NCBI GenBank assembly: GCA_027886975.1
Contig: JAPCJK010000002.1
Location: forward strand, 1 to 53,352
Length of the DNA stretch: 53,352 nucleotides
Direction of reading: 5' to 3'
From: Nitrososphaerota archaeon
GTDB taxonomy: Archaea > Thermoproteota > Nitrososphaeria > Nitrososphaerales > Gagatemarchaeaceae
Within the stretch, counting starts at the first letter, position 1, and each line of letters starts with the position of its first letter. The notes beneath the pieces were generated by a model. The model saw only the letters and a program-made list of their open reading frames with translations. It was not told where the DNA came from and searched no databases. Of the stretch, positions 2,265-28,867 are shown in pieces. A program made the translations under genes and the position numbers.

Positions 2265-3475
2265 GCTTGCAGCCCCAGCCTGGCGGTGTCCGACACCAGC
2301 GATATATCGCTTGAACAGCCCGAGACTCCGTATGCTACGGCTCGAAGGCTGGTCGAGGAGTTTATTGCCATAAGGACTCCAAGCCGTTGATCTCCCTCTT
2401 CAATGACCAGTTCGACCCCGACCACCCTCCCGCTCGGCCGCTCGTATACAATGGAACATGCCGATTCGGGACTCCACCTGCGGCTGATTTCTGAGACCAT
2501 CAGCCCGTGGGCTCGAGCCTCCTCGAGCCTAGTTCCAGCCCTCGCCCACCTTAGGCCGAAGAACGAAGCCTCGGCGAAGTTCAGGGTTCGCATGGAAACT
2601 CTGTGTCCCGCTGCGTTTGCCCCTGCGACCCTCCCGGAGGTCGCTGCGGCCCCTTCCAGAGTGCCGAGATGGGGCCAGCAATAGCGGGGTTCAGCGCACC
2701 CGCCTGCAGCGTAGAGTAAGGGGGAACTCGACCTGAGGTTTTGGTCAACGAGTAGCCCCCCATTCGGACCTGTCTCTCCGAGTGTTTGAGGAAAGCAGGG
2801 GACGCGCCCGGGCAGAAAGACAAGCGCATCGCATGGAACGACCGTCCCCCCTGCAAGGACTGCTTCCACATGGCCACACCCCAACGCGCTCCGCAACGTC
2901 GAATCGAGGATTGAGACTCCCCTCCTGGCGGCCGCGTCCCTGACAGCGGTCCCGATTGTCTTGCTCGCGAACCGTTCGAGCCAGGGCGCAGTAAGTAGTG
3001 TGACTTTCCTCCCCGTCCCCCTGAGTCCATCCGCCACATGGAACGCCTGAACCCCCTCCCCGCGGATGACGACGTGAGCCATCGAAGACCTTTCGCGCCC
3101 CAATTCGGCGTATGCCTCGAGCCCATCTAGAATGATGACCCCTTGTTTTCTCCGACCATGAAATACTGCAGGAACGAATTCGCTGCCTGTCGCAAGCACA
3201 ACCGAATCGAACCTAACCTTCGTTCCATCGGTCGTGAGGACGAAGTCCCTACCGATAGAGGTCACATTGGCGCCGAGCGTCAATTCAACGTTGTCTGGAA
3301 GGGGGTGCGACCCCGCGGACTGCTCGGGCGAAAGAATCAAGTCAGGCCATACCTGCCACGAGGGTTCCCAGCCATCTAACCGCTCTAGGAGTATGACCTC
3401 CGCTCCGTTTCTTGACGCTTCAGCTGCGGCTTCAAAGCCCGCGGTCCCTCCCCCGACGACGGCGACACTGCTCAT
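2249..3475 (-). CDS. FAD-dependent pyridine nucleotide-disulfide oxidoreductase family protein
   Basis: This 408-residue flavoprotein has an N-terminal FAD motif (VAVVGGGTAGFEAA), the VLATGSE strand-turn and a second FAD-contact segment LLYAAGGCAE, the Pyr_redox_2 arrangement. The NAD(P)-binding glycine motif in the middle is weak (VVIRGEGVQAFHVADGL). There is no CxxxxC redox-active disulfide near the N-terminus, so this is not a lipoamide dehydrogenase or mercuric reductase. It may resemble NADH oxidases, CoA-disulfide reductases or rubredoxin-type reductases. The specific electron donor and acceptor cannot be read from the sequence. The ATG lies 25-30 bases from the palindromic TATA element shared with the divergent GTPase gene, so the mRNA is probably leaderless. 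It is followed by, and overlaps, the serA-like gene. Confidence 0.75.
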   Translation of the reverse strand: MSSVAVVGGGTAGFEAAAEASRNGAEVILLERLDGWEPSWQVWPDLILSPEQSAGSHPLPDNVELTLGANVTSIGRDFVLTTDGTKVRFDSVVLATGSEFVPAVFHGRRKQGVIILDGLEAYAELGRERSSMAHVVIRGEGVQAFHVADGLRGTGRKVTLLTAPWLERFASKTIGTAVRDAAARRGVSILDSTLRSALGCGHVEAVLAGGTVVPCDALVFLPGRVPCFPQTLGETGPNGGLLVDQNLRSSSPLLYAAGGCAEPRYCWPHLGTLEGAAATSGRVAGANAAGHRVSMRTLNFAEASFFGLRWARAGTRLEEARAHGLMVSEISRRWSPESACSIVYERPSGRVVGVELVIEEGDQRLGVLMAINSSTSLRAVAYGVSGCSSDISLVSDTARLGLQAWSGS

Positions 3476-3498
3476 CCGAAGGCTCGGTGCGTAAGACG

Positions 3499-3506
3499 GT
3501 TATAAC
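3499..3506. promoter_or_regulatory. Palindromic bidirectional TATA element (GTTATAAC)
   Basis: The 8-base perfect palindrome GTTATAAC sits almost exactly midway between two divergent ATG codons (3475 minus, 3529 plus). Its TTATAA core lies 25-30 bases from the minus-strand ATG and 24-29 bases from the plus-strand ATG, the usual archaeal spacing from TATA box to transcription start. Both transcripts are therefore predicted to start at or very near the start codon (leaderless). No other AT-rich element exists in the 53-base gap. Confidence 0.65.
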
Positions 3507-3528
3507 GGGCCGGGAATTTGGCGGGCCC

Positions 3529-4734
3529 ATGCTGGTGGGAGTCGTCGGTAAACCTAATGTGGGCAAGTCGACCTTATTCGCCGCGGCCACCCTCAAGGAC
3601 GTGCCGATCGCGGACTACCCGTTCACGACAATCCAACCGAACATAGGCATCGCTCATTTGCGGACCAAGTGCGTGTGTCGAGAGATGGGTGTCACAGACA
3701 GCCCTCGGAACTCGACCTGCATCGACGGAGTGAGGCTGATTCCCGTCAAGATTGTCGACGTCGCAGGTCTCGTAGAAGGTGCAGCACAGGGGAGGGGGCT
3801 GGGGAACAAGTTCCTCGACGAGATAAGGCAGGCGGACGCCCTGATTCACGTCGTGGACGCGTCCGGGTCCACGGACATCGAAGGGAGGAAGGTTCCCCCC
3901 GGGTCCCATGATCCCCTTGGCGACGTCGCCATGGTGGAACACGAGTTCGACCTGTGGGCGTTTGGATTGTTGAAAAAAGATTGGGAGAAGGTCTACCGGT
4001 CACTCGAGCAGTCGGGAGGAAAAATAATCGACCATCTCGCCGAAAGATTGTCAGGACTCTCAGTGACCCTTGCAGACGTGGAGCTCGTAATCCAGCGCCT
4101 TCACCTGCGGACAGAGAAGCCCAGCATGTGGACGGACGAACAATTGCTTCAGTTCGTGATTGAAATTCGGAAGCTAACGAAGCCGTCTCTCCTCGCAGCC
4201 AACAAGGCGGACCTCCCTGCGTCGCTGCCAAACATTGAGAAGCTCAAACGGACGGGAAGGAAGGTGATACCTTGCGCATCAGAGGCGGAGCTCCTCCTTA
4301 GGAGGGCAGCCGAGCATGGGCTGGTCGAGTATCTACCGGGGGATGGCAGATTTGCCGTGAAGAACCCCGAGAGGCTGAGCCAGGCTCAGTCGAACGCCCT
4401 CAAGATGGTCGACGAAAGGGTGATGCGCGTCTTTGGGGGTACTGGGGTGCAGGAGGCGATAAACCAAGCTTTCTTCGATCTTTTGAAAGCCATAGTCGTC
4501 TTCCCTGTCGAGGACGAGACCAAGCTCTCGGACAAGTTGGGGCGCATTCTCCCTGACGCCTTCATCATGAAGGGTGGTTCCACCGCCCTTGACCTGGCCA
4601 GAACAGTCCACAGCGAGCTTGCCGAAGGGTTCCTTTACGCGATTGACGCAAGGAATGGGAAGAGGCTAGGCGCGGACCACGTGTTGGGAAACAGAGACAT
4701 AGTCAAGATCGTATCAGGCGGCAAGAGGGGGTAG
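3529..4734 (+). CDS. YchF/Obg-family GTP-binding protein with C-terminal TGS domain
   Basis: This is a 401-residue P-loop GTPase. The G1 motif GKPNVGKST is at residues 7-15, the G3 motif is DVAGLVEGA, the G4 motif is NKAD, and a C-terminal TGS-like domain (VFPVEDETKLSD ... VLGNRDIVKIV) ends the protein. This layout matches the archaeal YchF/Obg-like ATPase-GTPases that bind ribosomes. The frame is open 39 codons further upstream, but the family N-terminus (MLVGVVGKPN) and the TATA element 24-29 bases upstream both fix the start at ATG 3529. An insertion around residues 40-65 contains three cysteines (CVCREMG...STC). The last 21 bases overlap the convergent eS1 gene. Confidence 0.88.
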   Translation: MLVGVVGKPNVGKSTLFAAATLKDVPIADYPFTTIQPNIGIAHLRTKCVCREMGVTDSPRNSTCIDGVRLIPVKIVDVAGLVEGAAQGRGLGNKFLDEIRQADALIHVVDASGSTDIEGRKVPPGSHDPLGDVAMVEHEFDLWAFGLLKKDWEKVYRSLEQSGGKIIDHLAERLSGLSVTLADVELVIQRLHLRTEKPSMWTDEQLLQFVIEIRKLTKPSLLAANKADLPASLPNIEKLKRTGRKVIPCASEAELLLRRAAEHGLVEYLPGDGRFAVKNPERLSQAQSNALKMVDERVMRVFGGTGVQEAINQAFFDLLKAIVVFPVEDETKLSDKLGRILPDAFIMKGGSTALDLARTVHSELAEGFLYAIDARNGKRLGADHVLGNRDIVKIVSGGKRG

Positions 4735-20857: not shown

Positions 20858-21457
20858 CTACAGGGTTAATCCTTCCTCTTTAATCCCTGTTTTGTCTATC
20901 ATCAGGATGTCGATGCCGTTGCCGCTCATCGCGTCCCTGGCCACGGCGGCCTTGATAGCCGCTACAAGAAGATCCCGAGCTTCCTTCTGGGTCATGGCAG
21001 GGTTGTATCCAGCTTCGACAACCCCAATCGCGGTCTCCTCTCCAGTCCCAACCGTGGCGTACTGGTCAGAGATCACGCTCCCAAGTGGGTCGAGGACGTA
21101 GACTATCGGCTTGTCACTCACTCCTCCCAAGATTACCTGAGTCAGAAGCGGGGCATATCTGTTCTGGAACATAAGCGTCGACATTAGCTTTGCAACTGAA
21201 TTCGGCTTGAGCGCCTTCCTTGCCTCCAGTTCCTTGAGCTTCGAGTATACCCCTACTTCCTTCACCAGGTTCTGCATGTCGGCCACCATCCCCGCGCACA
21301 CTGCCCCAACTGTCTCGGTGACCTTGAAGACTTTCTTCCCCGACTTGCTCCTCACGAAGCTGCCCAGGGTGATCCTTCTTTCCGCGCCCAGAACCACCCC
21401 GTCTTTGTACGCGATCCCCACAGCCGTGGCACCGGGCAAGTACTGCTCGTAAGACAT
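20858..21457 (-). CDS. psmB1: Proteasome beta subunit lacking the catalytic threonine
   Basis: This 199-residue protein has the full beta-type Ntn-hydrolase fold: the GVVLGAERR turn, SGKKVFKV with Lys33, AVCAGMVADMQNLV, and the C-terminal ARDAMSGNGIDILMI. At the maturation site it reads LPGATAVG where an active beta subunit has G-TTTVG, so Thr1 is replaced by Ala, and Asp17 is replaced by Glu (GAERR). Lys33 is kept. The N-terminal extension is only nine residues. Autocatalytic processing and peptidase activity are therefore not expected. Inactive beta subunits assembling with an active one are known from Sulfolobales 20S proteasomes. The active counterpart is encoded at 26.3-27.0 kb. ATG 21457 has a GGTGG Shine-Dalgarno-like sequence just upstream. 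Confidence 0.9.
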   Translation of the reverse strand: MSYEQYLPGATAVGIAYKDGVVLGAERRITLGSFVRSKSGKKVFKVTETVGAVCAGMVADMQNLVKEVGVYSKLKELEARKALKPNSVAKLMSTLMFQNRYAPLLTQVILGGVSDKPIVYVLDPLGSVISDQYATVGTGEETAIGVVEAGYNPAMTQKEARDLLVAAIKAAVARDAMSGNGIDILMIDKTGIKEEGLTL

Positions 21458-26279: not shown

Positions 26280-26951
26280 ATGTCAAGAGAATTCAACACA
26301 GTGGGTCGGAAGACAGTAGGCTCTGCCGTATACCACGGGACCACGACAGTGGGGCTCGTGTGCTCGGACGGAGTCGTCCTGGCCACCGACACGCGAGTGA
26401 CCGCCGGGGGCTTCATCGCGCACAAGAGGGGGAAGAAGCTCCTGAGAATCGATAACAACTTGGCCATGACGATTTCAGGTGGAGTGGCCGATGCACAGAA
26501 CGTAGTCGACACGCTGAAGTACTATACGAACCTCTACAGGATTGAAAAAAGCCGGCCCATGCCGGTGAAGGCGGCGGCACAGGTCGTTTCAAACGTCCTG
26601 TTTTCGTCAAGGCTGTATCCGTTCATCGCCGACGTCCTCGTCGGTGGAGTAGACAGCAGCGGAGGCTCGATCTTCAACGTGGACTTCTTCGGGTCCATGA
26701 ACAAGGAGAAGGTCGTCGCGACCGGGAGCGGCTCGCCGGTAGCGTATGGTATCCTGGAGTCGGAGTTCAAGGAAGGCATGCCGACGTCCAAGGCATACCC
26801 GCTTGCTGCGAAGGCGATCATAGCAGCCACGCGGAGGAACGTCGCCACGGGGGACCACTTCGACGTGGCCGTCCTGGACAAGGAAGGTTTCAGGGAGATA
26901 TCCGAACAGGAGAAGGACAAACTCCTGGCCCAGTTCACAACTAACAATTAG
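26280..26951 (+). CDS. psmB2: Proteasome beta subunit, canonical catalytic type
   Basis: The 223-residue precursor has a 20-residue propeptide ending in YHG before the mature TTTVGLVCSDG. Counting from Thr1, Asp17 (ATD) and Lys33 (RGKK) are present, so this subunit should self-process and be catalytically active. Two other active-site positions differ from the usual RDxxSG: the segment reads RNVATG, that is Asn for Asp166 and Thr for Ser169. The frame is open upstream to 26112, but ATG 26280, preceded by GAAGAGG at 26261-26267, gives a normal propeptide. A TTAAATAA element at 26223-26230 predicts a transcript with a leader of about 25-30 bases. aCPSF1 follows after two bases. Confidence 0.93.
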   Translation: MSREFNTVGRKTVGSAVYHGTTTVGLVCSDGVVLATDTRVTAGGFIAHKRGKKLLRIDNNLAMTISGGVADAQNVVDTLKYYTNLYRIEKSRPMPVKAAAQVVSNVLFSSRLYPFIADVLVGGVDSSGGSIFNVDFFGSMNKEKVVATGSGSPVAYGILESEFKEGMPTSKAYPLAAKAIIAATRRNVATGDHFDVAVLDKEGFREISEQEKDKLLAQFTTNN

Positions 26952-26953
26952 TC

Positions 26954-28867
26954 TTGGAGCAGAAAACGAACGGCGTAAGCCTAATGAGCGCCATTCTGAA
27001 CAACATCCCAGCGGAAGCTCAGATAACAAGGATCGAGTATGAAGGCCCGAGGATCGCTCTCTACACGAAGAACCCGGCCTTCCTCCACAAGAACAGCTAC
27101 GTAATCTCTGAGATCGTGAACACTCTGAAGAAGAGGGTGGTCACGAGGACTGAGAAGTCGATCAGGAAGCCAGAGAACGAAGCGAGGCAGACTCTGGAAA
27201 AGACCCTCCCCATCGAGGCCGAAGTCTCGAACTACTTCTTCGACGACGCCTTGGGGGAGATAACGGTCGAGGCGGGGAACCCAAGGCTCCTCTCCCAGGA
27301 GGCTGGCTTCGACCTAGGGGCGGCGATGGAGCAGACGGGATGGAAGGTGAAGGTGAGGAAGGCACCGCACATCAAGTCGACGGCGATCCAGAACGTGTAC
27401 TACGCCTTGAAAGTGGGAAGCGACGCCCGGGAGAAGTTCTACCGGGAGCTGGGAGAAGCGATATTCAGACCGCGAATCGCAGCCACCGAACATGTGACGA
27501 TCAAGACCCTAGGCGCATTCCAAGAGGTCGGGAGGTCGTGCATGCTAGTCGAGACCGCCGAGAGCAAGGTCCTCCTCGACTGCGGCATCCACCCGGGCTC
27601 AAGGAACACCTGGGACGCCTACCCGAGGCTGGACTGGGCAGATATCTCTCCGAATGACCTCGATGCGATAGTGATCAGCCACGCCCACCTGGACCACATG
27701 GGCTTCCTTCCTGCGATGTACAAGTTCGGCTATGACGGTCCGGTCTATTGCACAGAGCCGACCCTCCCTCTGATGACCTTACTTCAGAATGACTTCGTGA
27801 AGATTGCACAGATAGAGGGTGGGAGGCTGGTCTACGACCAAAAGGACATCAGGAACACAATCCAGCACTCCATCACCCTACCCTACGGGATGGTGACCGA
27901 CATCTCTCCCGACATCAAGCTCGTGTTCAACAACGCAGGTCATATCCTCGGCTCGGCGACCGTCCACCTGCACATCGGCGAGGGGGCCCACAACATCGTC
28001 TACACCGGGGACTACAAGTATGGCAGGACTCAGCTCTTCGACTCCGCGACCTGGAACTACCCGAGGGTCGAGACACTCATCACCGAAAGCACCTACGGGG
28101 CGAAGGAAGACATCATGCCGGTCCGAGAGGAAGTGGAGATGAACTTCGTCAACGCTATCAACGGGATTCTGAAGGGGGGCGGGAAAGTTTTGATCCCGAT
28201 CCCGGCAGTTGGGAGGGCACAGGAGATCCTTCTCGTGATAGACCAGTACATGAGGAACAAAATCTTGGTCGAGGCGCCGGTCTTCACTGAAGGGATGATC
28301 TCGGAGGCTACGGCCATCCACGTATCATATGCGGACTACCTTTCGAGGGAGCTGAGGACGAAAATACTCGAAGAAGGGGTCAATCCGTTCAAGTCCGAGT
28401 ACTTCACCGAGGTCGAGCACCCGACAGACAGGGAGGAGGCCTACCGCGAAGGGCCGGCCATAATCATGGCGACATCAGGCATGCTCGAAGGGGGGCCGGT
28501 GCTGGATTACTTCGAGAACCTTGCGCCCTCCGACAAGAACAAGATCCTGTTCGTTTCATACCAGGTCCAGGGGACCATAGGCCGCAGAGTCCTCGACGGT
28601 GGGAGCCAGGCGAGCCTGATGGAGCAGAACGGGAAGATCAAGATCGTCGACGTAAAGTGCGCCGTCCAGAAGATCGAGGGGTTCAGCGGCCACAGCGACT
28701 ATAACCAGATCATAAGGTTCGTCGGCAAGGTGAGGCCCAAGCTCCAACTTGTCCTGGTCAACCATGGAGATAAGCGAAAGACTGAGAACCTCGCCTACGC
28801 AATCCAGAGGATATACCGCATCCCTACCATCCATCCCGCCGTCCAGGAAGCGATCAGAGTCTACTGA
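26954..28867 (+). CDS. aCPSF1/FttA-type beta-CASP ribonuclease with KH domains
   Basis: This 637-residue protein has N-terminal KH-like domains (about residues 1-170), a metallo-beta-lactamase domain with HAHLDH near residue 242, GHILGSA and YTGDYKYG, and a beta-CASP insertion with STYGAKED and PAVGRAQE. The C-terminal motifs are MLEGGPV, FSGHSDY and NHGD. This is the conserved archaeal CPSF73-like nuclease that binds U-rich RNA 3' ends and acts in factor-dependent transcription termination. It starts at TTG 26954, two bases after the proteasome beta stop, so the two form an operon. A shorter ATG start ten codons later is possible. Confidence 0.95.
   Translation: MEQKTNGVSLMSAILNNIPAEAQITRIEYEGPRIALYTKNPAFLHKNSYVISEIVNTLKKRVVTRTEKSIRKPENEARQTLEKTLPIEAEVSNYFFDDALGEITVEAGNPRLLSQEAGFDLGAAMEQTGWKVKVRKAPHIKSTAIQNVYYALKVGSDAREKFYRELGEAIFRPRIAATEHVTIKTLGAFQEVGRSCMLVETAESKVLLDCGIHPGSRNTWDAYPRLDWADISPNDLDAIVISHAHLDHMGFLPAMYKFGYDGPVYCTEPTLPLMTLLQNDFVKIAQIEGGRLVYDQKDIRNTIQHSITLPYGMVTDISPDIKLVFNNAGHILGSATVHLHIGEGAHNIVYTGDYKYGRTQLFDSATWNYPRVETLITESTYGAKEDIMPVREEVEMNFVNAINGILKGGGKVLIPIPAVGRAQEILLVIDQYMRNKILVEAPVFTEGMISEATAIHVSYADYLSRELRTKILEEGVNPFKSEYFTEVEHPTDREEAYREGPAIIMATSGMLEGGPVLDYFENLAPSDKNKILFVSYQVQGTIGRRVLDGGSQASLMEQNGKIKIVDVKCAVQKIEGFSGHSDYNQIIRFVGKVRPKLQLVLVNHGDKRKTENLAYAIQRIYRIPTIHPAVQEAIRVY

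Follow-up and report, generated by a model that had tools for sequence, protein, structure and literature searches.

The window, the whole 53,352-nucleotide stretch of Nitrososphaerota DNA analyzed here, contains two proteasome beta subunit genes, one of which lacks the threonine nucleophile (Thr1). This raises the question of whether the altered gene is a decaying copy or encodes a noncatalytic part of a working proteasome, and of which subunit would then supply the active sites.

Catalytic residues of the Ala1 subunit

The open reading frame (ORF) at positions 20858 to 21457 (minus strand) is intact and stop-free and encodes 199 amino acids, with a 9-residue propeptide, MSYEQYLPG; its translation reads MSYEQYLPG/ATAVGIAYKDGVVLGAERR...KSGKKVF...RDAMSG. 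The Pfam Proteasome family (PF00227) matched the protein (E = 2.7e-45), as did TIGR03634 (E = 6.3e-60, yet at 201.9 bits, below the cutoff of 224), and this family membership, together with the Ntn-hydrolase fold, places it among archaeal proteasome beta subunits. The maturation region reads MSYEQYLPG/ATAVG, so that position 1 is Ala, encoded by GCC (21428 to 21430, minus strand; sequence and alignment). An earlier note on this DNA had reported this replacement, and translation and alignment bear it out. Ala1 is encoded by codon 10, counted from the ATG, which makes the choice of start codon irrelevant, and an alternative start that would place Thr at the site was rejected, the site being internal.

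Alignment with Thermoplasma PsmB gave Ala1, Glu17, Lys33, and Asp166, with segment 165 to 170 reading RDAMSG, and Lys33 and this segment are thus kept, as had been stated. The claim that Glu17 (GAA codon at 21380 to 21382, minus strand) is a second catalytic loss fails. Glu is a normal catalytic-triad residue at this position in other archaea, including the active subunits of Thermoplasma acidophilum (ATERR) and Archaeoglobus fulgidus (ATEKR), and the triad described by Huber et al. consists of Thr1, Lys33, and Asp/Glu17 (PMC4792962); Glu17 was therefore rejected as an inactivating change. It was found in 42 of 50 members of the clade of dead subunits described below versus 2 of 83 members of the live clade and is thus a clade marker, not a lesion. 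The subunit has the residues of active subunits at positions 17 and 33 and, like its orthologs, Ala instead of Thr at position 1. Judged from these residues, it would be inert through the replacement of Thr1 alone, and since the nucleophile is Ala, it is predicted to be unable to self-process or to cleave peptides. T. acidophilum PsmB (PDB 1pma) resembles it in Glu17, Lys33, Asp166, and fold and differs in having Thr1 and a homomeric active ring.

Selection, distribution, and origin of the dead subunit

The dead subunit is under strong purifying selection (median dN/dS, 0.067 over 521 pairs, versus 0.095 over 243 pairs for the active paralog; with dS of >1, the values for both are rough). Its AlphaFold model (pLDDT, 89.8) has the usual order of strands and helices, and the best PDB match of the model was 6z46 (Saci0613/Saci0662; TM score, 0.86), followed by T. 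acidophilum 1pma. The earlier note's view of an intact fold is confirmed by the model and its match to 6z46, and that of a gene that is not decaying is confirmed by the dN/dS, the lack of stops, and the conserved orthologs.

Every ortholog within the family has Ala1, and the versions of the site seen in the class are ATAVG, ATVVG, and ATALG. The site Pro-Gly-Ala-Thr-[Ala/Val], searched for as a degenerate DNA pattern, was detected in 332 of 400 class genomes, in 205 of the 220 good class genomes, and in 66 of 82 genera; these counts are lower bounds, as family f6 has Ala1 but escapes the pattern and some members of f7 have Gly1. The presence of Ala1 in the family orthologs and in these class genomes excludes chance or sequencing error. 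Beyond the class, the comparison covered 20 other families of the phylum, represented by 34 genomes and two betas per genome; each genome had one Thr1 beta and one Ala1 or Gly1 beta, and some contain further proteasome genes.

In a beta tree built without columns 1 to 3, 17, 129, 166, and 169, all 50 dead subunits, including PDB 6z46_H, formed a single clade (SH-aLRT, 99); the tree is a quick one with no bootstrap, and its root depends on two long alpha rows. Given this single clade, one loss of Thr1 suffices to explain the dead subunits. The loss in this paralog would date to the base of the Thermoproteota or earlier and would have persisted ever since. No paper stating such a single-origin, phylum-wide pattern was found in the open-licence literature searched. 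A half-dead beta ring would thereby be general throughout an archaeal phylum and no peculiarity of Sulfolobus, and the division of labor within the ring would be an old archaeal trait, parallel to the eukaryotic one. The eukaryotic noncatalytic subunits beta3, beta4, beta6, and beta7 are inactive members inside the beta ring and share with the dead subunit the fold and the idea of inactive ring members. A profile of the dead clade gave similar scores for active (beta5 and beta2) and inactive (beta3 and beta6) eukaryotic subunits and therefore supports no specific orthology to any of them. Descent of the eukaryotic inactive subunits from the dead clade, with genomes sampled within the phylum, is unsupported by these scores.

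Mixed beta ring and alternative readings

The dead subunit falls within the clade of Saci0662 of Sulfolobus acidocaldarius (PDB 6z46; PMC4569737), its top PDB match in both sequence and fold, and has a single Thr1-bearing partner in the same genome. The two proteins belong to different classes and are about 45% identical; they share Glu17, Lys33, and Asp166, and Ala1 is present in L193, a near-identical relative of Saci0662. The systems differ in that the partner beta in the window carries Asn166. In vitro, truncated Saci0662 and alpha formed a complete yet inert 20S barrel, Saci0909 alone with alpha formed no stable complex, and alpha (Saci0613), Saci0662, and Saci0909 together were active, with Saci0909 the minority beta and the three-subunit complex a single 658-kDa species (PMC4569737). 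The same study names an equivalent Thr1 in both betas, Saci0662 included. The 6z46 chain begins Met-Thr-Ala-Ile-Gly, and the natural L193 protein reads Leu-Pro-Ala-Thr-Ala-Ile-Gly; by alignment, the Thr called Thr1 in Saci0662 would be at position 2, which would account for the inactivity of the barrel with alpha. A swap of paralogs, in which the subunit that is dead here would be the active one in Sulfolobus, was suspected from 6z46_H as the best PDB match and was discarded once 6z46 was recognized as the inert barrel of Saci0613 and Saci0662.

The dead gene very probably encodes the structural, noncatalytic member of a mixed beta ring in a 20S proteasome. Such an arrangement, proposed in the earlier note by comparison with Sulfolobales, appears to be the best reading and is well supported by orthology, and by analogy we infer that the architecture and stoichiometry in this organism would be those of S. 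acidocaldarius. The dead subunit would most likely make up the greater part of the beta ring and contact the alpha ring, with Thr1-bearing betas interspersed among the dead subunits to supply the active sites. The finding is genuine, but as the phenomenon has already been described in S. acidocaldarius, it is largely known; what is added here is the single origin across the phylum and the altered active partner.

Only three proteasome genes, two beta and one alpha-type, are present in the whole genome (94.8% complete), and a third beta gene, which the earlier note had named as a possible refutation, is not among them. The alpha-type gene is on contig 76 and was assigned because of its N-terminal motif and because it groups with an alpha outgroup. 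The two beta genes are on opposite strands, with about 4.8 kb between them, and are therefore not cotranscribed, a point that counts against the mixed ring.

Alternatives to the mixed ring fit these observations less readily. The loss of the nucleophile could indicate a decaying or unused duplicate, a reading given almost no weight by the low dN/dS, the stop-free frame, the class-wide orthologs, and their position in one ancient clade; dN/dS and conservation likewise led to the rejection of a pseudogene. Separate homogeneous barrels, one active and the other an inert decoy or storage form, would involve no mixed ring and would agree with the complete, stable, and inert 20S particle formed by alpha and truncated Saci0662 alone (6z46), but they are improbable given that Saci0909 with alpha is unstable without Saci0662 and that the three subunits yield one species. 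The Ala1 subunit might instead be active through a shift in register, with processing that exposes Thr2 as the nucleophile. Thr2 is invariant across the dead clade, and some members read G-T, resembling a normal Gly-Thr cleavage site; however, active subunits conserve Thr2 just as strongly, which points to another role. In addition, the 6z46 construct begins with Met-Thr2, and the barrel that truncated Saci0662 formed with alpha was inert, so that such a shift is very improbable.

The Thr1-bearing partner and other proteasome variants

The partner gene (26280 to 26951, plus strand) encodes a Thr1-bearing, predicted active beta subunit with a 20-residue propeptide. It had been described as canonical, which holds for Thr1, Asp17, and Lys33 but not for positions 166 and 169, where the aligned segment RRNVATG has Asn and Thr in place of Asp and Ser (codons N166-V-A-T169 at 26838 to 26849, plus strand, counted from translation and alignment). 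The D166N and S169T pair was found in 15 of the 16 sampled families of the order with a Thr1 gene found, f37 retaining Asp and Ser; it is absent from the other class families f6 to f10 and f46 and arose once independently in f18. Thr169 probably preceded Asn166, because Asn166 is always accompanied by Thr169 (28 of 28 cases) and Thr169 also occurs with Asp166 (12 cases). Three changes at position 166 are required on the beta tree, and Asp166 is kept without exception in the dead subunit.

The change in the partner is the more interesting of the two subunits' residue changes. D166N in yeast beta5 left processing intact and lowered activity by ~60% (PMC4792962). The natural Asn166 site may be slow, or it may be compensated; either may hold. 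It is tentatively proposed that in Nitrososphaerales the sole Thr1 subunit of a mixed-ring proteasome, with its proton-shuttle pair Asp166/Ser169 changed to Asn/Thr, could have a slower or chemically different site, maybe dependent on its dead neighbors. The open-licence literature searched yielded no paper stating such an altered Asn166/Thr169 partner, and this order, with D166N occurring naturally in its active beta, lends itself to testing how essential the second catalytic triad is.

An aCPSF1-like ribonuclease gene (26954 to 28867) directly follows the active beta gene after a gap of 2 bp. Several relatives in the order (L262 to L270) have a third beta that starts Met-Thr-Thr-Ile-Val-Gly without a propeptide, has Asp17, Asp166, and Ser169, and has a divergent alpha gene immediately after it (for example, L264:2756-3337 with 3190-4011 and L270:2613-3227 with 3240-3920). 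This pair is apparently a second proteasome operon, absent from the genome of the window. Genome G140 (family f5; 97% complete) has the dead beta and a propeptide-less beta/alpha pair, and the ordinary Thr1 beta was not found in it, possibly through replacement or an assembly gap. In the active beta of family f17 (L168, L171, L218, and L220), Met immediately precedes Thr1 in the reading frame, which suggests that Thr1 would be exposed there by Met removal and not by autolysis.
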